Shown: positions 18,127-55,019 of the stretch, one piece after another
Numbering within the stretch: position 1 is the first letter of the stretch
Layout: the number at the start of each line of letters is the position of its first letter
Assembly (NCBI RefSeq): GCF_003258365.1
Contig: NZ_QHKM01000008.1
Coordinates: 1-64,000, forward strand
Source: Hymenobacter edaphi
Lineage (GTDB): Bacteria > Bacteroidota > Bacteroidia > Cytophagales > Hymenobacteraceae
Direction of reading: 5' to 3'
Length of the DNA: 64,000 nt
Notes under the pieces: generated by a model
Database searches by the model: none
The model's input: the letters and a program-made list of their open reading frames with translations, nothing else
Told to the model about the DNA's origin: nothing
Made by a program: the position numbers and the translations under genes

Positions 18127-18163
18127 CCTTTATTTGCGCAATCGATGTCGGGAACGTTGCCGG
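18127..18163 (-). promoter_or_regulatory. Shared pectin-gene operator candidate, site A
   Basis: 37-bp sequence whose core (18135-18154) fits TGYGCAATCGWTRYCGGGAA on the plus strand. The core ends 82 nt before the pectinesterase start. The same sequence in the same orientation relative to its gene lies upstream of the pectate lyase (34336-34372) and the second pectinesterase (54983-55019). Its CGTT...AACG-like half sites resemble LacI-type operators (inference). Confidence 0.7.
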
Positions 18164-18352
18164 AACAACCCCGTTCCGCGTCGGCGTGGGTGAGTGCTTA
18201 CTCTTCCTCTCCCAAACGTTGCCGGACGCCGAAGCGCGAGCTGGCCCAGCCCCGCCGCTGATTCCGGCCGGCAGCCCCGCCGCCCCGGGGCAGATCCGGC
18301 TCAGGGCCAGGCACGGTGGCCCGGGGCGCCGCCCAAAACGGGCCCGCAACCC

Positions 18353-18360
18353 AACCTTTG
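18353..18360 (+). promoter_or_regulatory. -7 element for the gene at 18400
   Basis: AACCTTTG, one mismatch to TAnnTTTG, 39 nt before the start codon. Confidence 0.4.
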
Positions 18361-18399
18361 GGCCGGCAACGGACTCCTGACCGTAAATCACCCCTGCCG

Positions 18400-18864
18400 A
18401 TGCGCGTGAGCTACCCCCGATTCCCCCGCTTGCTTAGTCCGTTACTGATCATGTTGCTGTTCATCTGCAGCCGCCCGCCCGAGGCCGCCGCGCAGCACCG
18501 CCCACTGCTACCGGCCGCCGGGCGCGGCCACACCCTCGAAGACACCGTGCAGGCCGTGCGCCGGCTGTTCAACGGCCACGACGCGGCCAGCACGTCCGGC
18601 TTGGCCGTCGGCGTGGGCGGGCTCAGCGTCATCGGCGTGGGCGCGCTCATGCCCGCGCCCTTCGGCAACCCCGGCCTCCGGGGCAATTTCATTGCCACCG
18701 GTGCCCTGGCTACCGGCGTCGGGGCGGGGCTGTCGTTGCGGCGCATGCTGCGCTTCAGCCCCAAGCACCGCGACGAAGTGCTGGCCGCCTACCAGCAGGG
18801 CGAGCCGCTGCCGCCCTACGTGCGCCGCCGCCTGCGGCCCGAGCATTTTCAGCCCGGCCGGTAG
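18400..18864 (+). CDS. Small exported membrane protein, paralogue 2 of 3
   Basis: 154 aa from MRVSYPRFPRLL; the longer frame upstream is not supported by a signal peptide. Signal peptide to AAAQ, then DTVQAVRRLF, two hydrophobic segments (GLAVGVGGLSVIGVGAL and FIATGALATGVGAGL), then YQQGEPLPPYVRRRLRPEHF and a short end. It matches paralogue 1 from the DxxxAV motif to the C terminus. Divergent from the pectinesterase. Confidence 0.78.
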   Translation: MRVSYPRFPRLLSPLLIMLLFICSRPPEAAAQHRPLLPAAGRGHTLEDTVQAVRRLFNGHDAASTSGLAVGVGGLSVIGVGALMPAPFGNPGLRGNFIATGALATGVGAGLSLRRMLRFSPKHRDEVLAAYQQGEPLPPYVRRRLRPEHFQPGR

Positions 18865-19033
18865 CGCCCCGGGGCCGCGCGGCGGCCCAGCCAATAGCTG
18901 CCCGAATCAGACTTCGTGCAGCTGCGCCTAAATGGCCAAACAGCGGCCCTGGGGCTCCAAGGTGGGTAGCGGCTGGCCGCGGGGCTGACATCCTGCCCTG
19001 GGCCTGGCCAGCCAGCGGCTTGGCTGCGGGCGC

Positions 19034-19041
19034 TATCTTCC
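19034..19041 (+). promoter_or_regulatory. -7 element for the gene at 19064
   Basis: TATCTTCC, 22 nt before the start codon. Confidence 0.4.
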
Positions 19042-19063
19042 GGGCACACAGTTACGCTATTCC

Positions 19064-19513
19064 ATGAAACTCTATCTACTCCTGGCGGGGCTGCTGGCGT
19101 CGGGGCTGGCCAGCCGCGCCCAGACGCCCGCGCCGGCCGCTGCCCAGGCCGCCGCGCCCACTCCGCAGCTCGCCCCCCGGGCCGATACCGTTGCGGCCCT
19201 GCACCGGCTGTTTGCCCGCCGGCGTCGCCAGTTCCTGGTTATCGGCGCCGGCGGCGCCGCGCTGAGCATCGGTAGCAGCATTGTCTGGAGCCGGGTGGCC
19301 GTGGAAACGAGGACCGGGGGCAGCATTATCAGACCGCTGTTTCCGCCCGAGACTTACCCCATCATCGGGGTCAGCGTCGGCATCGGCTTTGGGATTGTGG
19401 GGGCGGCGCTGGCCGGCGACTTCGGCCCCCGGCGCGAGGCCGAAACGGTGCGGCGCTACGAGGCTGGCCACCCGCTGTCGGCCGCCCTGCGCCGCCGCCT
19501 GAGGCTGCGCTGA
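19064..19513 (+). CDS. Small exported membrane protein, paralogue 3 of 3
   Basis: 149 aa. Signal peptide (ASRAQ), an Ala/Pro-rich linker, DTVAALHRLFARRRR, two hydrophobic segments (FLVIGAGGAALSIGSSIVW and IIGVSVGIGFGIVGAAL) and a tail YEAGHPLSAALRRRLRLR. It is the most diverged of the three and lacks the EHF end. It lies 199 bp after paralogue 2 with its own promoter-like element. Confidence 0.75.
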   Translation: MKLYLLLAGLLASGLASRAQTPAPAAAQAAAPTPQLAPRADTVAALHRLFARRRRQFLVIGAGGAALSIGSSIVWSRVAVETRTGGSIIRPLFPPETYPIIGVSVGIGFGIVGAALAGDFGPRREAETVRRYEAGHPLSAALRRRLRLR

Positions 19514-19602
19514 CGCGCCCCGGCCCGCCCCACAAGCACCTGCGCGCCCGCCGTCACCGCCCGGGCCCGGTGGGGAAGGCGACGTTGTCCTGCGCGCGCA
19601 AA

Positions 19603-19651
19603 GACCAGCCCCGCCGCGGCCAACCAGTGGTCAGTCGCGGCGGGGCTGGTC
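19603..19651. terminator. Long GC-rich hairpin between convergent genes
   Basis: 16-bp perfect stem GACCAGCCCCGCCGCG with a 17-nt loop, 90 nt after paralogue 3 and 54 nt before the stop of the next gene. There is only a weak T-run. Confidence 0.55.
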
Positions 19652-19705
19652 GGCAAGCGGCGAAATGCCGGCGCGGCGGCCGGGTAGCCGGCGCCCGGCC
19701 GGCCG

Positions 19706-20713
19706 CTAGAAGCGGGTCTTGACGATGGCGAAGCGCGGCGCGGTGGGCTGGTAGGGGTAGAGCACGTAGGCGTCGTTGCTGCGGCGCGTGATGGTGGTGG
19801 GGCTGACCGCGCCGGTGACAAAGGAGCCGGTGGCAGCGGCCGTGGCCCAGCCATCGGTGCTGCCGAGGCGGTACACGGTGCCCTGGCTGCCGGCCACCAC
19901 CAGCAGCGTCTGGTTGTCGGACAGCAGCAGGCCGTCGGCCCCGGCCAGGTTTTGCGTCGTGGTGACGCGGGTGAAGCCGGCCGGGTTGCTCAGCGGCACC
20001 TTGAAGAGGCTGCCGTCGCTGGTTTTGGCCACCAGCAGGTAGCCGTCGGGGTGGTACACGATGCCGTTCAGGCCGAAAGTGGTGCTGCTCAGCTGCGCGT
20101 TATCGAGCAGGACGGTGGCGTTGCCCTGCAGATCCAGCTTGTAGATAACCGGGGCGAAGCTGTCGGTGATGTAGGCGTTGCCCTGCGCATCGACGGCAAT
20201 GTCGTTGGCGAAGTGCTGCGAGTAGGCAGCGGCTTTGCTGCCCAGGTCGGTGTAGGCGAGCAGGTTGCCGGTGGTGGCGTTGAAGACGGCCACGGCTGCC
20301 AATTTGCGCTGCGTGGCGGGCGAGGTGCGGGCGGGGTTGAAGTTGTTGTCGGCCACGGCGGCCAGCACGCGGTTGCGGCCCGCGTCGAGGTGCAGCCCGA
20401 TGGTCGAAATCAGCCGCGCGTCGTCGGCCAGGGCGGTGTAGGTGCTGTCGTCCTTCACCGTGATGATGCGGCCCTCGCGGCGGGAGCTAACGATAAAGCG
20501 CTGGTTGGCGGCGTCCCACTGAATGCCTTCGGGGTGCGAGGCCGCCAGCGGCACCGTGATTTTGTCGGGCGTGGCGGGTATTTCCACCGGGTCGTCGTCG
20601 TCGTTGGAGCAGCCGGGCAGCAGCGCCAGCAGCGGCAGCAGCACGACGAGCAGGCGCAGCAAGCGGGGCAAAGAAGGGGCAGCGGGCAGCTGGGGTAAAA
20701 ACGGGTGTTGCAT
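19706..20713 (-). CDS. SMP-30/NHL-like beta-propeller lipoprotein
   Basis: 335 aa. Signal peptide with lipobox LLPGC followed by an acidic SNDDDD tether, then repeated strands such as SHPEGIQWDAANQRFIVSS, NDIAVDAQGNAYITDS and GLNGIVYHPDGYLLVAK, typical of SMP-30/gluconolactonase-like propellers. No clear catalytic metal site was traced, so binding rather than catalysis is equally possible. Outer-membrane or surface lipoprotein by inference. Confidence 0.82.
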   Translation of the reverse strand: MQHPFLPQLPAAPSLPRLLRLLVVLLPLLALLPGCSNDDDDPVEIPATPDKITVPLAASHPEGIQWDAANQRFIVSSRREGRIITVKDDSTYTALADDARLISTIGLHLDAGRNRVLAAVADNNFNPARTSPATQRKLAAVAVFNATTGNLLAYTDLGSKAAAYSQHFANDIAVDAQGNAYITDSFAPVIYKLDLQGNATVLLDNAQLSSTTFGLNGIVYHPDGYLLVAKTSDGSLFKVPLSNPAGFTRVTTTQNLAGADGLLLSDNQTLLVVAGSQGTVYRLGSTDGWATAAATGSFVTGAVSPTTITRRSNDAYVLYPYQPTAPRFAIVKTRF

Positions 20714-20807
20714 AAATGCGGCGTTTGGAGTCAGGGTATTAATCTGCTGACTATACGCTCATTGGCCGCATTCGGTCGGGCTGCCTGCACGCGCTGCCAA
20801 AACAAGC

Positions 20808-20845
20808 GGCCTGGTGGCCCGCCTCCAATGGCGGGCCGCCAGGCC
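20808..20845 (-). terminator. Terminator of the broken gene at 20866
   Basis: 16-bp stem GGCCTGGtGGCCCGCC with one wobble pair and a 6-nt loop; the minus strand continues into GCTTGTTTTGG. Confidence 0.65.
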
Positions 20846-20865
20846 GGCAGCGGCGGCAAGCGGGG

Positions 20866-21180
20866 CTAGGGCTTGCGGAAAATCAGCGTGCTGTAGCTGT
20901 CGGTCTGGTCGCCGCCGGTAAAGCTGCCCTGCAGCCCGTAGCCCTGGGCAAAGAGCTTGTCGAAGAGCACCTGCAGCTGCCTGGCGTTGTACTCCTGGCT
21001 TTTCTTGCCCGCCACAGTTTCGATTTTGCCGGGGCCGTAGGTGATAATGGCCTGGTTCCAGCCGCCGGATTCGCGCCCCCGCACTACGGCCGTGTTGCCC
21101 GAAGTGGTTTAGGCCTGGGCGGGTGGGCTGCCCCACAGGCTGAGCGCGGCCAGGCCGCAGGCAAGAAGAAGCTTTTTCAT
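20866..21180 (-). pseudogene. Small secreted protein with in-frame stop after signal peptide
   Basis: The frame starts MKKLLLACGLAALSLWGSPP AQA, a good signal peptide, and codon 24 (21109-21111) is TAA. The same frame then continues TTSGNTAVVRGRESGGWNQA through to FRKP for 80 more codons. A single C-to-T change from CAA would restore a 104-aa exported protein with a normal AQAQ-type cleavage site. The mature part (FDKLFAQGYGLQGSFTGG) looks like a small DUF4177-like domain. It is either a true nonsense mutation or a sequencing error. An internal start at MRGRESG would give a 72-aa protein without export signal. Confidence 0.75.
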
Positions 21181-21268
21181 GGCAGAAGCGGGGACCAGGG
21201 TGGGCGCTACCCCGGGTAAAAAGTCCGCCAGCGCAGCCGCGCGACGCAATGACTTCCGGCCGGTCGGC

Positions 21269-22063
21269 TCACGCCCCGGGCCCCTGGGGCAGGCCGAGCA
21301 GGTACAGCTTCCGGGCCTTGCCTCCCAGCAGGCCGGTTTCCCAGGTGTAGTCGGCTGCCTGCAGGCCTTCGAGCAAGGTCCTCATGTCGTCCAGCGTGTA
21401 GGTGCGGGCGTTGGAAACGGCGCCGTCCCAGGCAAAGCACAGGGGAATAACCGGCAGCACGTAGGTGAAGAACAGCTGCCGGATGGTGAGGGGCCGGACG
21501 AAGGGCGTGAGCAGCAGCGCCAGCAGGAAATTCGGCAGCAAAGCCACCCACCACAGGCCGATGGGGAAGCTGTTGTCGCTGATTTCGTACACGCAGATCG
21601 GCTGGCGCTGCTGCTGAGCGTCTTGCAGGATGCCCCGGGCCACGGCCGGGCGCATGTGGTGCAGGCTGCAGATCATGGTGCGCACCCCGCGCAGCTCCAC
21701 GTCCACGCGCGTGGCGTCGACGGCGTGGGTTTGGTAGCGCAGGGCCGGGTCGTCCCCTGCGTTGATGGCCGCGGCCAGTTCCCGGTTGGGGTACAGGTCC
21801 GTCATGGTCAGCCGCAGGTGGCCGCGGCCGGGCTGGGCTTTCAGGGTTTGGTACACCTCCAGCATCGGCCCGCCGCTGCCCGAGCACAGGTCCACGATGG
21901 TGGCGGTATCGGTGTGGGCCAGGGCCCGGCGTAGCAGTTCCTCCAGGTGAGCAGACGAGCCCAGGAGCCGGTGCATGACCACAATCAGCCGCGTCAGGCC
22001 GGTGCGCAGCCCGTGGGGAAACCAGGCAAAGTCCTCGAACTCAAACAGGTGAATGCGTTTCAT
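21269..22063 (-). CDS. Class I SAM-dependent methyltransferase-like protein
   Basis: 264 aa from MKRIHLFEFEDFAWFP. Motif I, ATIVDLCSGSGGPMLEVYQTL, is a Rossmann SAM-binding loop, and LTMTDLYPNRELA is the next strand with its acidic ribose ligand. A hydrophobic stretch (GLWWVALLPNFLLALLLTPF plus LFFTYVLPVIPLCFAW) near residue 180-220 suggests membrane association, as in proteins acting on lipids or quinones. The substrate is unknown. Confidence 0.78.
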   Translation of the reverse strand: MKRIHLFEFEDFAWFPHGLRTGLTRLIVVMHRLLGSSAHLEELLRRALAHTDTATIVDLCSGSGGPMLEVYQTLKAQPGRGHLRLTMTDLYPNRELAAAINAGDDPALRYQTHAVDATRVDVELRGVRTMICSLHHMRPAVARGILQDAQQQRQPICVYEISDNSFPIGLWWVALLPNFLLALLLTPFVRPLTIRQLFFTYVLPVIPLCFAWDGAVSNARTYTLDDMRTLLEGLQAADYTWETGLLGGKARKLYLLGLPQGPGA

Positions 22064-22346
22064 CGTGGCGGGCCGCTTGCGAAGACGGATTTGCGGGGGC
22101 AACCTACAAAAGCATACTCGTTATGGCATAGTGAATTATATATGTTTTTTGGCGGGTAAAAGACCGCACCCGCACGGTGGCGCCGGAGCATTGGCGCTGA
22201 GAACAGCCGTGGCATCGGTACCGCTGTCGGGCAAGCTGTCAACTCCACCTTCCCGCGGAAACGCCCGGTACGGCGCTTACGCGTACCACTTGCCAGGGCG
22301 CGGGCCATTCAGCTTTTTGAGCCCACGGCTAGGCCGTGCTCATCAA
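22064..22346. other. Intergenic region, mostly unexplained
   Basis: Starts with an AT-rich stretch (22108-22160) that may hold the methyltransferase promoter. At 22312-22350 a CTTTTTGA...TCAAAAAG plus CACGGC...GCCGTG stem overlaps the left arm of the clpB terminator, so the two hairpins would exclude each other. No gene seen. Confidence 0.4.
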
Positions 22347-22381
22347 AAAGGCCCCGCCGGCAAGCTGCCGACGGGGCCTTT
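22347..22381 (-). terminator. Terminator of clpB
   Basis: AAAGGCCCCG...CGGGGCCTTT stem of 10 bp with a 15-nt inner part, A-rich to the left so that the minus-strand RNA ends CUUUUUGAU. Confidence 0.8.
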
Positions 22382-22401
22382 CCCATAAATCAAGCTCCTG
22401 C

Positions 22402-25014
22402 TTACTCCACGGCCGGCATTTCCACGTTCACGAAGCGAATCTGCCCGTCCTGCAGTTCGGCTTCCACCACGGCGTCCTTCGAGACTTTGCCCGAGAGGAT
22501 TTCCTTGGACAGCTCGTTCAGAATCAGCCGCTGCAGCACGCGCTTCAAGGGGCGGGCACCGAAGGTCGGGTCGAAGCCCTGCTCGCCGAGGAAGTCGAGC
22601 ACCTCGTCGGTGGCTTCCAGGCGGATGCCGGCTTCTTCCAGCCGCTGCTGGATCTGCCGGAACTGGATGTCGACGATTTTGCGGATTTCCTTGCGCTTGA
22701 GCGGCTGGAACATCACGATTTCGTCGATGCGGTTCAGGAACTCGGGGCGCATGTGCTGCTTGAGGCGGTCCACCACTTCCTCGCGGGTGCGGTCCACCAC
22801 CTCGTCGTGGTTGTACTCGTTCAGCTCCTTGAAGTTCCGCTGAATGATGTCGGCCCCGGTGTTGGAGGTCATGATGATGATGGTGTTCTTGAAGTTCGCC
22901 ACCCGGCCCTTGTTGTCGGTGAGGCGGCCGTCGTCGAGCACTTGCAGCAGGATGTTGAACACGTCCGGGTGGGCCTTCTCGATTTCGTCGAGCAGAATTA
23001 CCGAATAGGGCTTGCGGCGCACCGCCTCGGTGAGCTGCCCGCCTTCGTCGTAGCCCACGTAGCCGGGAGGCGCCCCGATCAGGCGCGACACGGCGTGGCG
23101 CTCCTGGTACTCCGACATGTCGATGCGCACCATCGCGTTGTCGTCGTTGAACAGGTACTCGGCCAGGGCCTTGGCCAGCTCCGTCTTGCCGACGCCGGTG
23201 GTGCCCAGGAAGATAAACGAGCCGATGGGCCGCTTGGGGTCCTGCAGGCCGGCGCGGGAGCGGCGCACGGCGTCGCTGATGGCCATAATGGCTTCCGACT
23301 GGCCGGCCACGCGCTTGCCCAGCTCGGCTTCCAGGTTCAGCAGCTTCTCGCGGTCCGACTGCAGCATCTTGCTCACCGGAATGCCGGTCCATTTGGCTAC
23401 CACTTCAGCAATGTCCTCGTGGGTCACCACTTCCTGCAGCATCGAGCCGCCGTCCTTGTTGGCGTTGGCCTGGTCCTGCAGCTCTTTCAGCTTGGCTTCG
23501 GCTTCCTGAATCTTGCCGTAGCGCAGCTCGGCCACGCGGCCGTAGTCGCCCTGGCGCTCGGCCTGCTCGGCTTCCATCTTAAACCGCTCGATGGCCTCTT
23601 TCTGCTCCTGGATGTCGTTGAGCACGTTTTTCTCCGACTCCCAGCGGGCTTTCAGCGAGTCGCGCTTGTCACCCAGCTCGGCCAGCTCCTTGTTGAGCAC
23701 GGCTTCGCGGTCCTTGTTGTCCTCGCGGCGGATGGCCTCGCGCTCAATCTCCAGCTGCATGATGCGGCGCTGCACCTCGTCCAATTCCACGGGCATGGAG
23801 TTCAGCTCGATGCGCAGCTTGGCGGCGGCTTCGTCCATCAGGTCAATGGCTTTGTCGGGCAGAAACCGGTCGGTGATGTAGCGGCTCGACAGCTCCACGG
23901 CGCTGATGACGGCGTCATCGGTAATGCGCACGCCGTGGTGCAGCTCGTACTTCTCCTTGATGCCGCGCATGATGCTGATGGCGTCCTCGATGGTCGGCTC
24001 GTCCACCGTCACGGCCTGGAAACGGCGCTCCAGGGCCTTGTCCTTCTCGATGTACTTCTGGTACTCCTTGAGGGTGGTGGCGCCGATGGCGTGCAGCTCG
24101 CCCCGCGCCAGGGCGGGCTTGAGCAGGTTGGCCGCATCCATGGCGCCCTCGCCGCCCGCGCCGGCCCCGATCAGGGTGTGCATCTCGTCGATGAACAGGA
24201 TGATCTGGCCCTCGGCGTCGGTGACTTCCTTGATGACGGACTTGAGGCGCTCCTCGAACTCGCCCTTGTACTTGGCGCCGGCGATGAGCAGGCCCATGTC
24301 GAGCGACATGATGGTTTTGTCCTTCAGGTTCTCGGGCACGTCGCCGGCCACGATGCGCTGGGCCAGGCCCTCCACGATGGCGGTTTTGCCCACGCCCGGC
24401 TCGCCGAGCAGCACGGGGTTGTTCTTGGTGCGGCGGCTCAGGATCTGGAGCACGCGGCGGATTTCCTCGTCGCGGCCGATAACCGGGTCCATCTTGCCGG
24501 TGCGCACCTGCTCGTTGAGGTTGCGGGCGTAGCGGTTCAGGCTCTGGTACTGGTCCTCGGCCGACTGCGAGGTGACCTTGCGGCCCCCGCGCAGCTCCTG
24601 GATGGCGGCTTTCAGGTCCTTGAGGTTGAAGCCCGTGTCCTTGAGCAGGGAGGCCACGCTGTCCTTGCCGTCGACCAGGGCCAGCAACAGGTGCTCCACG
24701 GAGATGAATTCGTCGCCGAACTCCTTGAGGAAGCCGTTGGCGCGCTGCACGGCGGCGGCGGCTTCGTTGGCGAGGTAGGGCGAACCGCCGCTTACCTTGG
24801 GGTAGCCATTGACAATGGCATCCAGGCGCGGGGTGAGGATGTTCAGGTTGACGCCGAGCTTCTTGGCCAGAAACCCGGTCACGTTTTCATCCACCTGAAA
24901 GATGCCTTTCAGGAGGTGGCCCGTCTCGATGGCCTGCTGCTGGAGGCCGCCGGCAATTTCGGTGGCCTTCTGCACGGCCTCCTGGGCCTTGATGGTGAAG
25001 TTGTTGAAGTTCAT
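22402..25014 (-). CDS. clpB: ATP-dependent disaggregase ClpB
   Basis: 870 aa. Hexameric Hsp100 chaperone that pulls apart aggregates with DnaK. N-domain with paired Clp repeats (about 1-145); AAA1 with Walker A GEPGVGKT and Walker B ILFIDEMH; a long coiled-coil middle domain (about 400-525; [21 protein letters not shown] region); AAA2 with Walker A GTTGVGKT and Walker [16 protein letters not shown]-terminal D2-small domain with [13 protein letters not shown]. The start at [15 protein letters not shown] is the conserved N terminus. No heat-shock operator was recognised upstream. Confidence 0.97.
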
Positions 25015-25153
25015 AACGCTAAGTCTCGTTCGGGTGCTTTGGTCTAAAGCTGATACGGGCTTAGCAAAGGATGGGCTAAAGGGAATATTCGGACTTTTTG
25101 TCCGGTTTTGAGACTTTGACGGATGTTGTTTATGTAGTTTTGGCAGAAACTCG

Positions 25154-25231
25154 CAAATAAGTGGGTATATATGCAACGAAAGGGCCTAGTACCAACTAGG
25201 TCCTTTCGTTGCATATATACCCACTTATTTG
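25154..25231. repeat. 78-bp near-perfect palindrome (37-bp stem)
   Basis: The left arm starting CAAATAAGTGGGTATATATG pairs with the right arm over 37 positions, with a single G-T wobble (25184/25201) and a 4-nt ACCA loop. It lies between the CBS-HEPN gene and clpB, 140 nt upstream of the clpB start. It has no U-run, so it does not look like a normal terminator; an RNA copy would be a long double-stranded hairpin. Confidence 0.85.
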
Positions 25232-25256
25232 AGATTTATTGCCTTGTTATTCAGGG

Positions 25257-25316
25257 TTTCCTCTAACTAGATATTAAAATTAATTGAATTAAATTTTAAT
25301 ATCTAGTTAGAGGAAA
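25257..25316 (-). repeat. Second palindrome overlapping the CBS-HEPN stop codon
   Basis: 25-bp perfect stem (TTTCCTCTAACTAGATATTA plus AAATT) with a 10-nt A/T loop. The TAG stop (25303-25305) and the last three sense codons form part of one arm. Together with the palindrome at 25154 it could end transcription or protect the mRNA 3' end. Confidence 0.8.
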
Positions 25317-26562
25317 ATTTTAGGTTGTTGGGTTTGTGTATCTTCTTTTTAGCAAGAATGACTTTTTCCTTTGATAAATTAACCCATAGTACTCGCCAGT
25401 TTTCTGGTAGTAACTGCTGCAGCGGCGACTGTATATCAGAGCTTCCCATCCACCAAGTGGTATGTTCTCTGGCTGCTTTTGGCAAAGGGTTTTTTATAAT
25501 TTTTTCCACTCCTATGAATGTAAGGTTGCGTACTGGGTGTTTGTCGCTGGCAAGTAAGTATTCTACCAATGGAGCATACTTATTGTCAATAGTTTCATCT
25601 TGCTCCTTTTCTAAATGAAAATCATTGTTCGTGTCTTCGAAAGTATTATTGTTTTGTTGATTATCGTCTGATGTTAGATCCTGGTGACTAGAATTAGGTA
25701 AGGGTTGGTGAGATTTATACCAGTCTGCGCAATATCTGAGCTGGTCTCTCTCTATTGATGATATGTCACCTCTGAAGTGGACTAATTTGTTCCGAGTTTC
25801 TCGTACAGATTCCATCATTTCGTGCCAAGCTTCCCGAGGAACACGAAATACTGTTCTGAGTTTTTTCCATGCTTTTTCTTGCATGGCTAATTGGATATAT
25901 TCTGCTAAGGTTAAATCATCAAACCGGCGTTTCTCTTTGTCACTTGGGAAATGTTTGTCAACAATTGAATCTATTGTTTCTTGGGTTGGAGTAATGTTCT
26001 CTGATTTGCAAAGGTGCTTGAGAGAGGCTACGCTCTTCTTTCTCATTCCATCCCAAGAATTTCCTAGACTAGCTACGGCTTCTTGCAAGGCAGTACTCTC
26101 TTCCTCTATTGAGCTATATGTGTTTCTTATATGCGCTTTTAAAGTGCTTTCGATATCTTCAACTAATACGATATCTTCCGCTCTTCCTCTGAAATATTGT
26201 GTTGTGTCATAGTCGGTGATAATGCCTATTAATTTCCGGCCGCCATCAACTATTAATACAGCGGACGATTTTAATAGAAAGTCTAGTAAGTATAAGAGGT
26301 CTTCGTCGACTGGAAACGTGGGCGCCTTTATTACTGCGTCAATAACATGTAAGTCTCTGACTTTTGTGCCTAGGTTTAATAAGGCTCTTGCAATAGAATC
26401 AGTAGTTACAATTCCTGTTGGCCTACCGTCTTCATCCAGCACAGGTAATTGGCTGAAGTCGTTTTTTAGCATAAGTGATAATGCTTCGGTTAGCGAGTTT
26501 TCTGGAGAAACAGTTACCGGGGTCGACTTTGTCTGGAGTAGATGTTTAGCAGGTAAGGGCAT
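25303..26562 (-). CDS. CBS-pair / HEPN-like / DUF7662-like fusion protein
   Basis: 419 aa, no signal peptide. Residues 5-65 and 70-135 form two CBS motifs (SQLPVLDEDGRPTGIVTTD; AVLIVDGGRKLIGIITDYD), a nucleotide-binding sensor pair. Residues about 160-285 are helical, with RFDDLTLAEYIQLAMQ and VRETRNKLVHFRGD resembling the Swt1/RiboL-type HEPN fold, including an R257-x4-H262 motif typical of HEPN ribonucleases. A polar Asn/Asp/Gln linker (290-328) leads to a C-terminal module with LTFIGVEKII and LPKAAREHTTWW, like DUF7662. The gene is far more AT-rich than its neighbours. Possible nucleotide-controlled RNase with a stress or antiviral role (inference). Confidence 0.8.
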   Translation of the reverse strand: MPLPAKHLLQTKSTPVTVSPENSLTEALSLMLKNDFSQLPVLDEDGRPTGIVTTDSIARALLNLGTKVRDLHVIDAVIKAPTFPVDEDLLYLLDFLLKSSAVLIVDGGRKLIGIITDYDTTQYFRGRAEDIVLVEDIESTLKAHIRNTYSSIEEESTALQEAVASLGNSWDGMRKKSVASLKHLCKSENITPTQETIDSIVDKHFPSDKEKRRFDDLTLAEYIQLAMQEKAWKKLRTVFRVPREAWHEMMESVRETRNKLVHFRGDISSIERDQLRYCADWYKSHQPLPNSSHQDLTSDDNQQNNNTFEDTNNDFHLEKEQDETIDNKYAPLVEYLLASDKHPVRNLTFIGVEKIIKNPLPKAAREHTTWWMGSSDIQSPLQQLLPENWRVLWVNLSKEKVILAKKKIHKPNNLKFSSN

Positions 26563-26621
26563 GGCGGTTTGAGTTATGTCTGCAGAGTTTATGACTAAGA
26601 GAGGTGTTATTGATGTGGCCG

Positions 26622-34192: not shown

Positions 34193-34335
34193 AGTGGGAA
34201 TGAGCGGGAACGAATGGGGCGAGGGTGGGCGCCGCGCCCGGTTGCCAAAGCAAATGGCTTAGAGCGGCTTAGGCGCGGGCGGGCTGCGGCCAGTGAATAT
34301 GGCAATTGCCCTATGGCTACGCCCGGGTTTGGTGG

Positions 34336-34372
34336 TATTTATCTGTGCAATCGATATCGGGAACGATGCCAA
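34336..34372 (-). promoter_or_regulatory. Shared pectin-gene operator candidate, site B
   Basis: 37 bp matching sites A and C; core 34344-34363. It lies between the pectate lyase and a divergent DUF72 gene starting 83 nt away on the other side, so it could act on either. Confidence 0.7.
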
Positions 34373-48595: not shown

Positions 48596-48617
48596 GCGCC
48601 GGGCCGGGGCCGGGCGT

Positions 48618-48625
48618 TATCTTGC
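48618..48625 (+). promoter_or_regulatory. -7 element for the nitroreductase gene
   Basis: TATCTTGC, 25 nt before the start codon. Confidence 0.5.
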
Positions 48626-48650
48626 GGGCTCATTTCAGCTGCCCGTTGCC

Positions 48651-49247
48651 ATGTCCACCGACACCCCGCTGCCAACCCCCGAACAGTTCGACGCCCTCAT
48701 CCGCGCCCGGCGCAGCATTCAGCCCGTGCAGTTCGAGCCCGGCCGCGTCATTCCCGACACCATCATTGAGCGGATGCTGGAAAACGCCAACTGGGCGCCC
48801 ACGCATAAGCGCACCGAGCCCTGGCGCTTCGTGGTATTCAAGGGCGCGGGGCGGCAGCGGCTGGCCGAGTTTCAGGCGGCGCTGTACCGGCAGCAGGCCG
48901 GCGAGTTCGTCGACGAGAAGAAGGCGCAGAAGCTGGCGACCAATCCGCTGCTGGCCTCCCACGTCATTGCCATCGGCATGAAGCGCCACCACGTGCTGCC
49001 CGAAATCGAGGAAATCGAAGCCGTGGCCTGCGCCGTGCAGAACCTGCACCTGACGGCCGTGGCCAACGGCGTGGGCGGCTACTGGGGCTCGGGCGGCGTG
49101 ACCTACGCGGAAGAGGCCAAAGCCTTCTTCGGCCTCGGCCCCGAGGACAAGCTGCTCGGCTTCTTCTACCTCGGCTACGTGCAGCAGCAGCCCGGCCGCA
49201 ACCTGCGCAAGCCCATCGAAGAGAAGGTGAGCTGGGTCACGGAGTAA
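48651..49247 (+). CDS. Nitroreductase-family FMN protein
   Basis: 198 aa. IRARRSIQPVQFE carries the phosphate/FMN-binding Arg pair, ENANWAPTHKRTEPWRFVVF the next FMN contact, and YWGSGGVTYAEEAKAFFGLGPEDKLLGFFYLGY the C-terminal core. Reduces nitro compounds or quinones with NAD(P)H in the cytoplasm; the true substrate is unknown. It has its own promoter-like element although it follows the antiporter closely. Confidence 0.9.
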   Translation: MSTDTPLPTPEQFDALIRARRSIQPVQFEPGRVIPDTIIERMLENANWAPTHKRTEPWRFVVFKGAGRQRLAEFQAALYRQQAGEFVDEKKAQKLATNPLLASHVIAIGMKRHHVLPEIEEIEAVACAVQNLHLTAVANGVGGYWGSGGVTYAEEAKAFFGLGPEDKLLGFFYLGYVQQQPGRNLRKPIEEKVSWVTE

Positions 49248-49298
49248 GAGCGGGGAGTTATTAGGTGCGAGTGGTCGGTTGTCAGGCACAAATAAGCC

Positions 49299-49335
49299 CG
49301 TCATCCTGAGCAAAGCGAACCGCAGGACGACGTTC
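49299..49335 (+). repeat. Dispersed intergenic repeat, copy 3
   Basis: CGTCATCCTGAGCAAAGCGA followed by ACCGCAGGACGACGTTC; matches the copies at 35378-35419 and, more weakly, 5284-5327. Confidence 0.65.
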
Positions 49336-49358
49336 TGGCTTTCCACCACCACCACAAA

Positions 49359-49391
49359 AAAAGGCCCGCTGCACTGTGCAGCGGGCCTTTT
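49359..49391. terminator. Bidirectional terminator
   Basis: 15-bp perfect stem AAAAGGCCCGCTGCA with a 3-nt loop and A/T runs on both sides, between convergent genes. Confidence 0.92.
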
Positions 49392-49414
49392 TCAGTAAGC
49401 AAGCGGACTAGAAC

Positions 49415-50995
49415 CTAGCGACGCGGCGCGGGCTTGCGGGCGGGCGCTTTCTTGGCCGGGGCCTTTTTGGCCGGCGTGGCCTTGGCGGGCGTCGTCGGGA
49501 TGACGATGTCCGGCATGGTGGGCTCGGGGCCGTACTTCACTTCGGCCGTGTTCGGGTCGCCGGTGAGGAAGAGGTCGAAGTCCACGCGGCGGTTCAGGGC
49601 GCGGCCGGCGTCGGTGGCGTTGTCGGCAATGGGCTTGGTTTCGCCGTAGCCGCGGGCCTCGATGCGGGCGTCCGGAATGCCTTTGCTGAGCATGTACACG
49701 CGGGCCGAAGCGGCGCGGTCGTGCGAGAGGCGCAGGTTGTACGGGTCAGAGCCCTTGCTGTCGGTGTGGCCGGCAATGCTCAGGGTGTAGTCCGGGTACT
49801 CGTTCAGGATCTGCACGATGGCGTCGAGGGTCGGGTACGAGGAGGGCAGCAGTACGGCCTTGTTGAACTCGAAGTTGATGTACTTCGTGGCTTCCTGCAG
49901 GCGCTTCTTGGCCTCGGCCTTGATTTCGGGGCAGCCGCGGTTCGATGCGGGGCCCGGGCGGTCGGGGCAGCGGTCCTGGTAGTCGGGCACGCCGTCACCG
50001 TCGCGGTCGAGCGGGCAGCCCGAGGCATCCACCTGCACGCCGGCGGGCGTGTTCGGGCACTTGTCGTTCTGGTCGATGACGCCGTCGTTATCGGCATCCG
50101 GGCAGCCCTTCAGCTCGGGCTTGCCGGGCGTATCGGGGCAGGCGTCGTCCTTGTCGGCCACGCCGTCGTTGTCGCGGTCGGGGCAGCCCTGCAGCTCCGG
50201 CTTGCCGGCTTCGGTGGGGCACTGGTCCTGGTAGTCGGCCACGCCGTCCTTGTCGGTATCGATGGGGCAGCCGTTGGCATCCACCTGCACGCCGGCGGGC
50301 GTGCCGGGGCATTTGTCCTTGCGGTCGGGCACCTTGTCGCCGTCCTCGTCCTTGGCCTGGCCCAGGTTGAAGTTCAGGCCCACGGTGTGCTGCAGGAATT
50401 TGTCGTCCCAGCCGTTGTCGTCGCGGGCCTGGTCGCCGTCGAAGTTGGCGTAGTAGGGGGCGTGCTGGCCGGTCTGCACGAACAGGTTCACCGTTTCGCC
50501 GAGGCGGAAATTGAGGCCCGCGGCGGCAAACAGGTCGAAATAGCTTTTATCCTGGTCGATGCGCCCGCCGTTGTAGAAGCCTTCCCGCGAGGTGTACGTC
50601 CAGCCCGGGGCGGCCAGCAGGTAGGGCTGGATGAAGGCGTCTTCCTTGAGGGCCCAGCCGTTGTTGAGCTTGAATTTCAGGCCCAGGTTCACGTTCACCA
50701 GGTTGGTGGCGAAGTAGGTATTGGCGTTGCGGCTGCCCTTCAGCTCGCCGTAAAACGCCTGCAGGTTGGCGTCGAGGCCCTTGCCCAGGTACTGGTTGAT
50801 GGCCAGGCCCGGGGCGTAGCGGTTGCTGCTGAAGTTCCAGTAGTCGGAGCCGTAGTTGCCCTTGTACTGCAGCGCGCTGACGTTGAGCCCAATGCTGGTT
50901 TTGCGGTCAGCCGACTGGGCTTGGCTCAGAAGCGGAACGACGGCCAGCGCCAAAGGCAGCACCAGCAGTCGAGGGTTGGGAATAAGGTGTTTCAT
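49415..50995 (-). CDS. OmpA-family protein with TSP3 repeats, paralogue 1
   Basis: 526 aa. Signal peptide (LSQAQ), an N-terminal beta-barrel region (about 25-215), then five thrombospondin type 3 calcium loops (DEDGDKVPDRKDKCPGTP, DTDKDGVADYQDQCP and so on, about 220-355), an OmpA peptidoglycan-binding domain (YINFEFNKAVLLPSSYPTLDAI, SIAGHTDSKGSDPYNLRLSHDRA) and a Lys/Ala/Pro-rich tail. It ties the outer membrane to the cell wall. Start at MKHLIPNP. Confidence 0.93.
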   Translation of the reverse strand: MKHLIPNPRLLVLPLALAVVPLLSQAQSADRKTSIGLNVSALQYKGNYGSDYWNFSSNRYAPGLAINQYLGKGLDANLQAFYGELKGSRNANTYFATNLVNVNLGLKFKLNNGWALKEDAFIQPYLLAAPGWTYTSREGFYNGGRIDQDKSYFDLFAAAGLNFRLGETVNLFVQTGQHAPYYANFDGDQARDDNGWDDKFLQHTVGLNFNLGQAKDEDGDKVPDRKDKCPGTPAGVQVDANGCPIDTDKDGVADYQDQCPTEAGKPELQGCPDRDNDGVADKDDACPDTPGKPELKGCPDADNDGVIDQNDKCPNTPAGVQVDASGCPLDRDGDGVPDYQDRCPDRPGPASNRGCPEIKAEAKKRLQEATKYINFEFNKAVLLPSSYPTLDAIVQILNEYPDYTLSIAGHTDSKGSDPYNLRLSHDRAASARVYMLSKGIPDARIEARGYGETKPIADNATDAGRALNRRVDFDLFLTGDPNTAEVKYGPEPTMPDIVIPTTPAKATPAKKAPAKKAPARKPAPRR

Positions 50996-51106
50996 GAAGT
51001 GGCGGCATTCCGCGGGCAACATTACCCGCGGCGGAATGGCCTCGTATACCCCCGCCCTCGGCCGAAGGTTATGCCTGAGGCTCCGACTTCATCTACGCTT
51101 CATGCG

Positions 51107-51147
51107 CAGCAAAACGGCCGACCCGGTGAAGGTCGGCCGTTTTGCTG
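51107..51147 (-). terminator. Terminator of the second OmpA gene
   Basis: 17-bp perfect stem CAGCAAAACGGCCGACC with a short loop; the minus strand carries a T-rich end within the stem (TTTTGCTG). Confidence 0.75.
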
Positions 51148-51165
51148 TCAGTGCGAAACCCGTTT

Positions 51166-52926
51166 TCAGCGCTTGGGCGAAGCCTTTTGGGGCGTTGCCG
51201 CTGCTTTGGGTTTCGCTGCCGGCGCCTGGGCGGCCGGCGCTTTGGCCGGGGCCGGCTTGCGGGCAACGGGGCGCTTGGCCGGCGCTTTGGCGGCCGTTTT
51301 GCTGCGCGCGGCGGGCCGGGCCGGTGTCTTGCGGGCGGGCTTGGCGGGCTGGGCTTTGGCCGGGGCCGCGCTGGGCTCTTTGCCGTACTTCACCTCGGCC
51401 GCGTTCCGGTCGCCGGTCAGGAAGAGGTCGAATTCCACGCGGCGGTTTTTGGCGCGGCCGGCCTCGGTGGTGTTCGGCGCGATGGGGCGGGCGGGGCCGT
51501 AGCCGCGCAGCTGCAGACGCTCTTCGGCAATGCCCTGGCCCGCGAGGTAGCTGCGGGCGGCGGCGGCCCGCTCGCGCGAGAGGCGCTGGTTGAAGGCGGC
51601 CGGGCCCTTGCTGTCGGTGTGGCCGGCAATGCTGAGCGAGTAGTCGGGGTAGTCGCGCAGGATCTGGGCAATGCCCTCGAGGGTGGCGTGCGAGGTGGGC
51701 AGCAGCGCGGCGCGGTTCGGCTCGAAGCTGATAAAGCGGGTGGCTTCGCGCAGGCGCTTGCGGGTTTCGGCGCGTACAGTGGGGCAGCCCTTGTTGCCGG
51801 CCGGACCGGCGCTGGTCGGGCAGCGGTCGGCCGCGTCGGGCACCCCGTCGCCGTCGGTATCGGCCGTGGCCGAGGGGGCGGCGGGCGTCGGGGCGGGCGC
51901 GGGGGCTGGTTGCGCCGGGGCTGGCGCGGCCACGGGGCAGCCGCTGGGGTCTACCTGCGTGCCGGTGGGCGTGTCGGCGCACTTGTCTTCCGCGTCGGGC
52001 ACGCCGTCGTTGTCGGCGTCGGGGCAGCCCTGCAGCTCGGGTTTGCCGGCCACGTCGGGGCAGGCGTCGTCGCCGTCCGATACCCCGTCGCCGTCCTTGT
52101 CGGCGCAGCCCTTCAGTTCCGCGGTGCCGGCCTGGTCGGGGCACTGGTCCTGGAAGTCGGGCACGCCGTCCTGGTCGCTGTCGAGCGGGCAGCCGTGGTC
52201 ATCCACCAAAATGCCCGTCGGCGTGCCGGGGCAGCGGTCCTTGTTGTCGGATACGTCGTCGCCGTCCTCGTCGCGGGCCTGGCCCAGGTTGAAGGTCACC
52301 CCCACGGTGTGCTGCAGAAACCGGTCGTCCCACCGGTCCTTGTCGGCCGGCCGGTTCACGCCGTCGAGGTTGGCGTCGAGCGGCAGGTGCTGGCCGGTCT
52401 GCACGAAGAGGCCCACGCCCGGCCCGAGCCGGAAATTAAGGCCCGCTGCCCCGAATACGTCGAAGTAGCCCTGGTCGCGGTCGGAGCGGATGTTGTCGAC
52501 CCAGCCGATGCGGCTGGTGTACGTCCAGCCCCCGGCGGCCAGCAGGTAGGGCTGAATAAAGGCGGTTTCCTTGAGGGCCCAGCCGTTGTTGAGCTTGAAT
52601 TTCAGCCCCGCGTTGGCGTTGATGAGGGTGGTGTTGAAGCGCGTTCTGGCCAGGGCGTTGCTGCCGCTCAGCTCGCCGTAAAACAGCTGGGTGCTCAGGT
52701 CCAGGCCGCGGCCCAGGTACTGGTTGATGGCAATGCCGCCGGCGTACTTGCTGCGGTCGAATTTCCAGTAGTCGGAGCCGTAGTCGCCCTGGTACTGCAG
52801 GGCGCTGAGGTTGATGCCGAAGCTGGTGTGGCGCTCGGGCGTCTGGGCCTGGGCCGGGCGCGGCGCAGCCAGCAGGGCCAGCGGCAGGGCCAGCAGCCAA
52901 CGGTCAGAAAGTAAGGTGTGCTTCAT
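51166..52926 (-). CDS. OmpA-family protein with TSP3 repeats, paralogue 2
   Basis: 586 aa with the same architecture as its neighbour: signal peptide (PAQAQ), barrel, five or six TSP3 loops interrupted by an Ala/Pro linker (AAPAPAQPAPAPAPTP), OmpA domain (FISFEPNRAALLPTSHATLEGI, SIAGHTDSKGPAAFNQRLSRERA) and a longer Lys/Ala/Pro-rich basic tail of about 75 residues. The two barrels share long identical stretches (LKFKLNNGWALKE, IQPYLLAA, FLQHTVG). Tandem duplication, each copy with its own hairpin. Confidence 0.93.
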   Translation of the reverse strand: MKHTLLSDRWLLALPLALLAAPRPAQAQTPERHTSFGINLSALQYQGDYGSDYWKFDRSKYAGGIAINQYLGRGLDLSTQLFYGELSGSNALARTRFNTTLINANAGLKFKLNNGWALKETAFIQPYLLAAGGWTYTSRIGWVDNIRSDRDQGYFDVFGAAGLNFRLGPGVGLFVQTGQHLPLDANLDGVNRPADKDRWDDRFLQHTVGVTFNLGQARDEDGDDVSDNKDRCPGTPTGILVDDHGCPLDSDQDGVPDFQDQCPDQAGTAELKGCADKDGDGVSDGDDACPDVAGKPELQGCPDADNDGVPDAEDKCADTPTGTQVDPSGCPVAAPAPAQPAPAPAPTPAAPSATADTDGDGVPDAADRCPTSAGPAGNKGCPTVRAETRKRLREATRFISFEPNRAALLPTSHATLEGIAQILRDYPDYSLSIAGHTDSKGPAAFNQRLSRERAAAARSYLAGQGIAEERLQLRGYGPARPIAPNTTEAGRAKNRRVEFDLFLTGDRNAAEVKYGKEPSAAPAKAQPAKPARKTPARPAARSKTAAKAPAKRPVARKPAPAKAPAAQAPAAKPKAAATPQKASPKR

Positions 52927-52947
52927 CGGGGGCGCGGATTGAGCGGG

Positions 52948-52955
52948 CAAATTGA
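52948..52955 (-). promoter_or_regulatory. -7 element for the second OmpA gene
   Basis: TCAATTTG on the minus strand, one mismatch, 21 nt before the start; the bases between share the 16-mer GGATTGAGCGGGCAAA (52936-52951) with the pruA leader. Confidence 0.45.
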
Positions 52956-53154
52956 CCTTTAGCGGGGAATCCCCAAGTACCCGTCGGCCCGCCAAAAGTT
53001 GTCGTCGGGACGGGCGGGCGTCGGCATTGATAAACTAAACATACGCGCAAAAGCCCCGCTCGACCAAGCCCGCCGGCAACTTTGCCTGGGCACCCGGTGC
53101 GGCCGGCTGCCGCCGCGCCCGGTAATTGAAGTAGGAGGATACCAATAAAAACAC

Positions 53155-53188
53155 GCTGCCCCGCCCGGATATTTCCGGGCGGGGCAGC
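53155..53188 (-). terminator. Terminator of the osmC-like gene
   Basis: 15-bp perfect stem GCTGCCCCGCCCGGA with a TATT loop, followed on the minus strand by GTGTTTTTATT. Confidence 0.85.
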
Positions 53189-53206
53189 GCAAAAAAAACG
53201 GCGCAA

Positions 53207-53605
53207 TTATTCGGCCAGGGCCGTTTCGATGGGCACGCCCGCCGTCAGGGCCTTGTGCACCGGGCAGGCGTTGGCCACCTGCAGCAGGCGCTGCCGCTGC
53301 TCGGCCGTCAGCTCGCCCGCCAGCCGAATCTGCCGGCTGAGGTGGCGCACCACGTGGTCGGCGGTGGGCGCGAAGCTCACCTCGGTTTCGATGCGCTGCA
53401 ACGGCCAGCCCTTGCGGTCGGCGTACAGGCGCACGGTGATGCAGGTGCAGGCCGTGAGGGCGGCGGCCAGCAGCTCGCCGGGGCTGGGGCCCATGTTTTC
53501 GCCGCCGTTGGCCAGGGGCTCGTCGGCCAGCAGGGCGTGGCCGCTGTCGGTGGAGAGGTCCGTTACGTAATGGTCGAGGCCGAGGTGGCCGGTGATGGTA
53601 GGCAT
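53207..53605 (-). CDS. OsmC-family peroxide-reducing protein
   Basis: 132 aa. OsmC/Ohr fold with cysteines in LTACTCITVRLYADRKGW (C53, C55) and ANACPVHKAL (C114), the usual redox pair positions. GGENMGPSPGELLAAAL is the active-site helix entry. Cytoplasmic thiol-dependent reduction of organic hydroperoxides is the family role. It is followed upstream by the pirin gene on the same strand with 60 nt between. Confidence 0.9.
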   Translation of the reverse strand: MPTITGHLGLDHYVTDLSTDSGHALLADEPLANGGENMGPSPGELLAAALTACTCITVRLYADRKGWPLQRIETEVSFAPTADHVVRHLSRQIRLAGELTAEQRQRLLQVANACPVHKALTAGVPIETALAE

Positions 53606-53665
53606 GGCAGGCGCTGGTAGAAGGGTTCGGGCCAGGTAACCGCCGAAGCGGCCCGCGGGTTAGCG

Positions 53666-54382
53666 TCACCCCAGCATGGGCACTTCCATCAGCAGCAGCC
53701 GGGCGGCGCTGTCGGCCCGGATGGCGAGTTTGTCGGTTTCCCAGATGCCCAGCCCGTCGCGGCGGTGCAGGGCCTGCCCGTTGATGGTTACGTCGCCTTC
53801 GAGCACGAAGGCGTAGACGCCGTTGCCGGCTTTTTTCAGCTGGTACTCGGTGCCGAAGCCCGCGTCGAGCTGGCCGAGGTGAAACCACGCATCTTGGTGC
53901 AGCCACACGCCCTCGTCGTCGGCGTTGGGCGACAATACCTGCTGCAGGCGGTTGTGCTGGTCTTCGGCCCGGAAGGTCTGCTGGTCGTAGCGGGGCGCCA
54001 CGTTGCGCTTATTCGGAATCACCCAGATCTGCAGAAACTGCACTTCCTCGCCGGCGGAGTGGTTTTTCTCGCTGTGGGCCACCCCGGTGCCGGCGCTCAT
54101 CACCTGCACGTCGCCGGGCCGGATGACGGCCTTGTTGCCCATGTTATCCTGGTGCTCCAGCGCCCCCGCCAGGGCAATGGACACGATTTCCATGTTGTCG
54201 TGCGGGTGGCGGCCGAAGCCCATGCCGCCGGCCACGGTGTCGTCGTTGAGCACGCGCAGGGCCCCGAAGTGCATGCGCTGCGGCTCGTAGTAGCCGGCAA
54301 AGCTGAAGGTGTGGTAGGAGTTGAGCCAACCGTGGTTGGCGTGGCCGCGGGTAGCAGCCGGGTGCAAAACAGAACGTGCCAT
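53666..54382 (-). CDS. Pirin-family bicupin protein
   Basis: 238 aa from MARSVLHPAATRGHANHGWL. The N-terminal cupin has the metal motif GRHPHDNMEIVSIALAGALEHQDN and later VAHSEKNHS; the second cupin ends GIWETDKLAIRADSAARLLLMEVP. Some family members oxidise quercetin-like compounds or act as redox-sensing co-regulators. It is divergent from an HxlR regulator that may control it. Confidence 0.9.
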   Translation of the reverse strand: MARSVLHPAATRGHANHGWLNSYHTFSFAGYYEPQRMHFGALRVLNDDTVAGGMGFGRHPHDNMEIVSIALAGALEHQDNMGNKAVIRPGDVQVMSAGTGVAHSEKNHSAGEEVQFLQIWVIPNKRNVAPRYDQQTFRAEDQHNRLQQVLSPNADDEGVWLHQDAWFHLGQLDAGFGTEYQLKKAGNGVYAFVLEGDVTINGQALHRRDGLGIWETDKLAIRADSAARLLLMEVPMLG

Positions 54383-54408
54383 AACGAAAGGGCGGAATAA
54401 TGACGGTG

Positions 54409-54416
54409 CGAAGGTG
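54409..54416 (-). promoter_or_regulatory. Possible -7 element for the pirin gene
   Basis: CACCTTCG on the minus strand, 26 nt before the start; a second, CACCTTTG, is at 54459-54466. Confidence 0.35.
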
Positions 54417-54495
54417 CAAGCCTCAGGCAATCAGCCGTGTTGGCGCTGATTGGTCGTGCAAAGGTGCATGCCCGTACTATACTTTTGCAAGTAGT

Positions 54496-54507
54496 TACAT
54501 CGATGTA
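54496..54507. promoter_or_regulatory. Perfect 12-bp palindrome in the pirin/hxlR intergenic region
   Basis: TACATCGATGTA, within an AT-rich stretch just upstream of the hxlR -7 element; a plausible operator for the HxlR regulator. Confidence 0.4.
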
Positions 54508-54524
54508 TATCACTATACGTTCTG

Positions 54525-54532
54525 TAACTTTC
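54525..54532 (+). promoter_or_regulatory. -7 element for the hxlR-type gene
   Basis: TAACTTTC, one mismatch to TAnnTTTG, 18 nt before the start codon. Confidence 0.45.
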
Positions 54533-54550
54533 GCTTGGAATCAGCCCGTT

Positions 54551-54904
54551 ATGAAAGCAGAAAATCCAAAAAAACTTGCGGGTGGCTGCGCCTTCCGCCA
54601 AACGCTCGACGTGCTGGAGGGCAAATGGAAGTTTGCCATCATCCACAGCCTGCTGCAGCACGGCACCCTGCGCTTCAAGGCCCTGGAGCGCGACGTGGCG
54701 GGCATCACCCCGCGCATGCTCATCAAGGAGCTGAAGCTGCTCGAAAGCCACGGCATCCTCACGCGGCAGGCCTACGCCACCGTGCCGCCCACCGTCGAGT
54801 ACACGCTCACCGACTGCGGCCGCTCCCTCGGTCCCATCATCACGGCCATTGAGGACTGGGGCCTGCAGAACCAGGCGGTTATCAGCGGCGGCGTGGCAGG
54901 GTAA
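54551..54904 (+). CDS. HxlR-family regulator
   Basis: 117 aa from MKAENPKKLAGGCAFRQTLDVLEGKWKFAIIHSLL; GGC-x-F near the N terminus plus GKWKFAII is the HxlR signature, with a cysteine (residue 13 area) often used for redox or electrophile sensing. The winged helix continues GTLRFKALERDVAGITPRMLIKELKLLESHG. Divergent from the pirin gene, a pairing common for HxlR regulators and the redox genes they control. Confidence 0.9.
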   Translation: MKAENPKKLAGGCAFRQTLDVLEGKWKFAIIHSLLQHGTLRFKALERDVAGITPRMLIKELKLLESHGILTRQAYATVPPTVEYTLTDCGRSLGPIITAIEDWGLQNQAVISGGVAG

Positions 54905-54982
54905 GCCCGGCGGGGCCGTGGCGTTGTCCTGCTTCGGCCAGCAACCAAGGCATTGCGGGCGGAAGGCGGCTCGTCAGCTTGC

Positions 54983-55019
54983 TTGTCAACGTTCCCGGCA
55001 ACGATTGCACAAGTAAAGG
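54983..55019 (+). promoter_or_regulatory. Shared pectin-gene operator candidate, site C
   Basis: 37 bp, core 54992-55011, 84 nt before the start of the second pectinesterase, almost the same distance as site A (82). This copy has the best symmetry: CGTT-C-CCGG-C-AACG. Confidence 0.7.

Follow-up and report, generated by a model that had tools for sequence, protein, structure and literature searches.

A candidate pectin regulon of Hymenobacter edaphi with a double-dyad LacI-type operator and a predicted activator-type layout

The 64,000-nucleotide stretch of the Hymenobacter edaphi genome analysed here (the window; contig NZ_QHKM01000008.1, below C42, positions 1-64000) carries an element of approximately 37 bp that recurs upstream of three scattered pectin-degradation genes, which raises the question of what this element is and which protein acts on it. 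The genome is 6.04 Mb in 43 contigs. The three matching sites of the initial annotation are present at the positions it gave, in the same orientation relative to each gene and with core-to-start distances of 82, 151 and 84 nt, and its gene names pectinesterase 1, pectate lyase and pectinesterase 2 are borne out by the PF01095 and PF00544 domains (Table 1). A search of the window for TGYGCAATCGWTRYCGGGAACGWTG with up to 3 mismatches returns exactly these three sites, each with 0 mismatches, so the statement that the window holds no further copy stands. No match is found in 100 dinucleotide shuffles of the window. The 15-base part of TGYGCAATCGWTRYCGGGAACGWTG alone is not distinctive, with 14 matches in the window against 6.9 expected at 3 mismatches.

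A degenerate pattern run over the whole genome with up to 3 mismatches identifies 13 sites, and the reversed pattern used as a control identifies 0. A sequence-only model built from the 13 sites recovers the same 13 with E-values of 2.3e-8 or lower, the next match having an E-value of 0.9. Pectin or rhamnose genes lie downstream of 11 sites, two of them only weakly PelZ-like. The pectin or uronate regulon first proposed from the window is thus supported at the scale of the genome, where the further matches are not scattered over unrelated genes and mostly precede pectin or rhamnose genes. The proposal that the genes are dispersed and form no polysaccharide utilisation locus holds in part: scattered genes exist, but the regulon also includes a GH28-GH88-lacI-kduD-SusC-SusD cluster. 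Several of the target family names sit below curated NCBIfam cut-offs: the KduD-like target scores 337.0 bits against a cut-off of 338.85, the L-rhamnose-isomerase-like target 491.5 bits against 646.75, and the PelZ-like targets far below theirs.

The lacI gene of this cluster (C42:90489-91508 of this genome, G000; minus strand, probable TTG start) likely encodes the regulator of the sites. The cluster holds two sites beyond those of the window, one of them between lacI and the divergent kduD-like gene. The protein features an N-terminal helix-turn-helix (HTH) domain (PF00356, E-value 2.9e-12) and a periplasmic-binding-protein-like sensor domain (PF13377, E-value 4.5e-36), and its best relatives in the PDB are CcpA (E-value 8.9e-53) followed by PurR. 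It was identified by way of eight genomes that have sites and lack a homologue of a GntR/Peripla_BP_3 protein considered earlier; 20 stretches were fetched from these, and the predicted genes were clustered with those of this genome. One cluster of eight members adjoins the sites without lying downstream of them, has a kduD-like neighbour in six of the eight, and belongs to the LacI family in all four members scanned, including the one from this genome. The expectation of a LacI-type regulator is upheld by this adjacency and by co-occurrence across the family, whereas that of an unlinked regulator fails, since the gene and site 3 share a contig and are 35.5 kb apart.

Across 204 genomes of the family Hymenobacteraceae, a lacI orthologue (E-value of 1e-90 or lower) is present in 93, and all 93 have sites. 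Neither is found in 104 genomes, which are all but seven of the 111 without the orthologue; no genome has lacI alone and seven have sites alone. The cut-off falls below the orthologues (1e-101 or better) and above the next matches (1e-88, in the exception genomes); second lacI copies at 1e-94 in G062 and G117 pass it without altering the genome count. The site search over the family genomes used stricter filters (over 40 genomes). Two of the seven exceptions have explanations: in G049, lacI lies in broken frames beside a site (L400), and G014 is perhaps accounted for by an assembly that is 78% complete. The lacI frames are also broken in G101 (L181) and G100 (L182), where kduI is broken or short as well; these breaks are perhaps assembly errors or long-read indels.

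The site is likewise conserved beside the regulator and pectin genes of relatives, as a regulon would predict. Of 16 loci fetched, a non-random choice, 15 contain lacI, and in all of these the site immediately precedes the gene. A set of named genomes was formed from the best 80 of 567 relatives, 53-93% identical, of which the orthologues of H. gummosus (93%) and Solirubrum puertoriconensis (86%) are closest to the regulator of this genome; the lineages looked up among these 80 cover three Bacteroidota orders, Cytophagales, Chitinophagales and Sphingobacteriales. A double dyad with at most 2 mismatches occurs within 350 bp upstream of 61 of the 80 orthologues, 55 of them with none, down to 53% identity, and the block-shuffled control gives 0.0. 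The 80 loci also contain homologues of SusC (37), SusD (30), KduD (23), KduI (22), GH88 (22), GH28 (15) and pectinesterase (15). The exact pattern matches 65 sites in 23 named genomes against 8 for the reversed control; seven of these genomes were picked since lacI there showed no upstream site, and their matches may belong to other regulators.

The most fitting description of the element is a pair of LacI-type dyads whose CG centres (between alignment columns 8 and 9, and 20 and 21) are separated by 12 bp, giving four half-sites of the form G-W-T-n-n-C; an AAATAAA tract follows on the gene side. This reading is favoured because each of the four half-sites running outward from the outer centres has G1, T3 and C6 fixed in 104/104 non-redundant rows, and at the middle centre (columns 14 and 15) the CG is invariant but base 3 is variable. 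The rows (104 at <70% identity, 78 at <50%) come from loci fetched for matching the model or for lying close to such matches, and only rows scoring 28 or more with the matrix were taken. Conservation of the operator is therefore in part a product of selection, which leaves the downstream columns unaffected. The double form is present at each of the 13 genome sites. As in a canonical LacI operator, both outer centres have CG flanked by conserved half-sites; the conserved span of approximately 28 nt is not, however, a single even palindrome of 16-22 nt, and conservation of all four half-sites rules out one canonical operator. The LacI-operator-like half sites described in the initial annotation are thus correct in type, but they belong to two overlapping dyads with an A/T tail and not to one operator. 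These dyads may be occupied in one of several ways: two registers could be bound alternately, one dimer could be stretched across them, or a double mode of another kind could apply.

Related double dyads are also found upstream of other LacI genes. A survey of 54 LacI genes from seven genomes, excluding this genome's own copy of the pectin regulator and requiring 11 or more of the 12 key bases for a pair, identified dyad pairs at a spacing of 12 upstream of 12 genes, of 18 upstream of four (all of which also have 12) and of 9 upstream of one. No pair is found at other spacings within 7 to 30, and shuffles yield 0.0 spacing-12 pairs (10 shuffles per spacing). Five of the 12 genes are orthologues of the pectin regulator and seven encode other LacI proteins, which makes the double-operator form common to some paralogues of other specificity. 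A second group of LacI genes with a double dyad is represented in Runella zeae, Dyadobacter psychrophilus and this genome (L330, L334, L351); here the dyads are flanked by ATCG/CGATA and lie 271-287 bp upstream of the HTH start.

Downstream of the operator, the 78 rows with <50% identity exhibit peaks of A/T fraction near columns 34, 45, 55, 65, 76 and 88, which are approximately 10.5 bp apart between the operator and an AAnTTT-like -7 element at columns 73-78. When rows are jittered by up to 10 bp, 0/1000 sets reach the observed variance or 10-11-bp power. With a held-out -7 matrix, 62% of matches fall no more than 1 bp from column 71, against 4.5% for a uniform distribution. In 144 regions from outside the regulon, each anchored at its best -7 match, no A/T phasing is seen, although many of these anchors may not be true -7 boxes; this flat control rules out generic promoter phasing. 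In 47 sites from distant taxa (31 non-redundant), boxes of the TAGAATTG/TAGACTTG type occur at approximately columns 72-79 and resemble the Bacteroidetes promoter consensus TAnnTTTG (PMC7366714). In this genome, the best -7 matches lie at columns 70-72 for eight of 13 sites, at 73 for one, at 82-84 for three and at 45 for one; the matrix used here omitted the eight of 78 rows from this genome and may retain orthologous promoters of close relatives. The matches at columns 82-84, among them the candidate element of pectinesterase 2, are about one helical turn farther from the operator than in most regulon promoters. Measured to the predicted -7 boxes, the operator centre is thus approximately 61 bp away, on the upstream side of the core promoter; the distance is fixed and in phase with the helix, as is expected of a class-I-type activator site.

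Taken together, the element is probably the operator of a pectin regulon governed by one LacI-family regulator that would act as a class-I-type activator, a reading that depends on the position and helical phase of the operator relative to the promoter. The LacI protein would bind the double-dyad operator around position -68, always on one face of the helix, and recruit RNA polymerase, and the adjoining A/T tract may serve as a landing site for the C-terminal domain of the polymerase alpha subunit (alpha-CTD). For the effector we guess at a product of pectin breakdown, namely 2-keto-3-deoxygluconate or a similar uronate, because kduD/kduI and pectin genes are linked to lacI. Secreted pectinesterases and lyases would thereby be turned on together with kduD, the rhamnose operon and the cluster that holds GH28, GH88, SusC and SusD. 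Whether the regulator activates or represses is the point of least certainty, and the layout suggests an activator rather than a blocking repressor. The same protein and operator could instead form a classical repressor that blocks or loops from upstream until an inducer releases it, the spacing being inherited promoter architecture; we consider this unlikely, since the operator lies clear of the core promoter, spacing and phase are kept in rows <50% identical and in distant orders, and a second spacing class lies about one turn farther. It is a tentative further proposal that a class of Bacteroidota LacI proteins gives class-I-type activation and requires for this a double operator, with its dyads 12 bp apart, in a 10.5-bp A/T-phased register with the promoter. 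Such proteins would use a new binding mode unlike the solved complexes, for example with the two dimers interleaved or with a switch of register by 12 bp.

A different view of the operator itself is that it forms a single stretched palindrome of 24-28 bp with one LacI dimer on the middle CG. The invariance of that CG agrees with this, as does a genus with LacI proteins 50-56% identical in which the 28 bp of the site form an almost perfect palindrome; we nevertheless hold it rather unlikely given the fixed bases around the outer centres, the variable base 3 at the middle one, and the lengths of surveyed LacI-family motifs, nearly all of which are 16-22 nt (1251/1303 are even; PMC4052901). As for the protein, the first candidate was the GntR/Peripla_BP_3 protein at C11:1774559-1775569, whose gene has a site upstream here and in five of the six same-genus genomes that possess it; gene and sites also occur in the same six of eight genomes of the genus. 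The wider profile of 204 genomes breaks this link (sites in 100, the protein in 84, both in 59): the gene is missing from 41 of the 100 site-bearing genomes and present in 25 without sites, and it heads the rhamnose operon and so looks like a target. A regulatory role for it over these sites is very improbable. That the element is a chance similarity or a dispersed repeat without regulatory role can be practically dismissed, as its targets are functionally coherent, it lies upstream of genes and is conserved across orders, and the reversed and shuffled controls without a match, the jitter test and the 61 named orthologues all exclude chance.

Several observations weigh against a LacI-controlled activator regulon. 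The co-occurrence of lacI and sites is confounded by common ancestry and by a common pectin habit, and five of the seven family genomes with sites and no orthologue at 1e-90 are unexplained (G020, G051, G081, G089 and G090). No site is found within 350 bp upstream of 19 of the 80 named orthologues. Two of the 13 sites have no clear pectin target, one preceding a secreted protein without assigned function and the other a gene remnant. Cross-binding is possible where LacI paralogues use related double dyads. One of the 13 -7 matches is far off, and the -7 matrix was derived from the regulon itself. The five unexplained genomes have one to four sites each, and their best LacI match is 39-44% identical or absent.

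LacI-family proteins that also activate include CcpA and Cra, and at class I promoters of CRP the site is upstream of the core promoter and both spacing and helical face matter. The layout described here is like these in its upstream site, spacing and face; it differs in phylum and sigma consensus, and its activation is predicted. KdgR of Dickeya is an IclR-family repressor and KdgR of Bacillus a LacI-family repressor of a small operon; in these systems, as proposed here, one regulator spans pectinases and uronate catabolism. Activation by Cra is described in PMC4052901, which also reports overlapping LacI-family sites whose preferred overlap of approximately 13 bp the authors, writing in 2014, found no way to square with structures. 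The GntR sites at gntKU of E. coli treated there similarly combine overlapping LacI-type dyads with a preferred short spacing, but the CG-centre spacing is 12 bp here, all 13 sites have the double form, and there is a promoter register. The passages of PMC3878776 on Bacteroides describe LacI-family uronate regulators (KdgR BT0487, UxaR BT0824, UxuR BT1434) that share family, phylum and a role in uronate catabolism with the regulator proposed here. Those regulators are assigned to uronate monosaccharide pathways, with pectin and rhamnogalacturonan loci under hybrid two-component systems, whereas the genes lying behind one LacI site in this genome comprise those for secreted depolymerases, a SusC/SusD cluster, kduD and a rhamnose operon; the comparison is of described roles. 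In the open PMC literature, with subscription journals and preprints outside the scope, no account of this regulon or operator was recognised.

A LacI regulon as such is of a known kind, and the unusual part is the operator with its predicted activator-type layout. For pectin breakdown in Hymenobacter, the analysis provides a regulator, an operator and a set of targets as candidates; by orthology these extend to relatives in Spirosoma, Dyadobacter, Pedobacter and Chitinophaga, and this arrangement contrasts with the two-component control reported for Bacteroides pectin loci (PMC3878776). The regulon also offers a clean natural system for the question of how overlapping LacI dyads are bound (PMC4052901). 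If the activator reading is true, the spacing from operator to -7 element could help to predict LacI-activated promoters in the phylum.

Table 1. Operators, genes and candidate promoter elements of the window (window positions) and further predicted targets in the genome (contig:position). T9SS, type IX secretion system; SDR, short-chain dehydrogenase/reductase.
Feature	Position	Strand	Basis or remarks
Operator 1, upstream of pectinesterase 1	18125..18163	-	Two LacI-type dyads 12 bp apart with AAATAAA tail
Pectinesterase 1, 1196 aa	14462..18052	-	PF01095, E 9.3e-59; T9SS sorting tail (Por_Secre_tail) PF18962, E 6.9e-10
Candidate -7 element of pectinesterase 1, CTAATATTC	18083..18091	-	Column 73 of site alignment; predicted
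Operator 2, upstream of pectate lyase	34334..34372	-	Same pattern and genome-model matches as operators 1 and 3
Pectate lyase, 427 aa	32909..34192	-	PF00544, E 4.7e-32
Weak candidate -7 element of pectate lyase	34295..34303	-	Column 70, score 3.2; predicted
Operator 3, upstream of pectinesterase 2	54983..55021	+	Same pattern and genome-model matches as operators 1 and 2
Pectinesterase 2, 870 aa	55096..57708	+	PF01095, E 7.5e-52; T9SS sorting tail PF18962, E 3.5e-07
Candidate -7 element of pectinesterase 2, GAAAATTTC	55064..55072	+	Column 82; predicted
GH28 then GH88	C42:86404		Genome scan
KduD-like SDR, then SusC, SusD and a further pectinesterase	C42:91635		Genome scan
Two proteins weakly like pectate lyase PelZ	C21:360674, C21:366631		Genome scan
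Two GDSL esterases and a pectinesterase	C39:105687		Genome scan
Two more pectate lyases	C36:452431, C11:1717500		Genome scan
Rhamnose operon: GntR-type regulator, L-rhamnose-isomerase-like protein, FGGY kinase, LutA/LutB-like proteins	C11:1774350		Genome scan
Protein of unassigned function with T9SS tail	C28:246959		Genome scan
Orphan promoter	C21:528631		Genome scan

The initial annotation found no regulator gene nearby, which holds in so far as no LacI or GntR type is present among eight scanned window proteins. However, an HxlR-type regulator gene (PF01638; 54437-54904, plus strand) immediately precedes operator 3 and pectinesterase 2, and the LacI gene is located 26.5 kb past the window end on the same contig.

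The two PelZ-like (NF041900) regulon proteins are encoded 6 kb apart (L014:8814-10268 and 14713-16527, plus strand) and feature no enzyme Pfam domain; they are possibly divergent pectate lyases. The 330-aa protein with the T9SS sorting tail (L022:8720-9712, minus strand) is encoded behind a strong regulon site and is a candidate new pectin-related secreted protein. At the orphan promoter (L019:10628-10666, minus strand), a full operator and -7 box are followed only by a 41-codon remnant with a twin-arginine translocation (Tat) signal; at the same position in same-genus genomes, G002 encodes a Tat-signal Gfo/Idh/MocA-type gene and G006 a similar frame. A double dyad without an A/T tail is also present between uxaC (PF02614) and a PfkB gene resembling 2-keto-3-deoxygluconate kinase (C42:106035-106058; L417:1501-1524). 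This double dyad has an E-value of 9.9 with the 13-site model and is perhaps a site of the same LacI protein, or of a paralogue in another mode.

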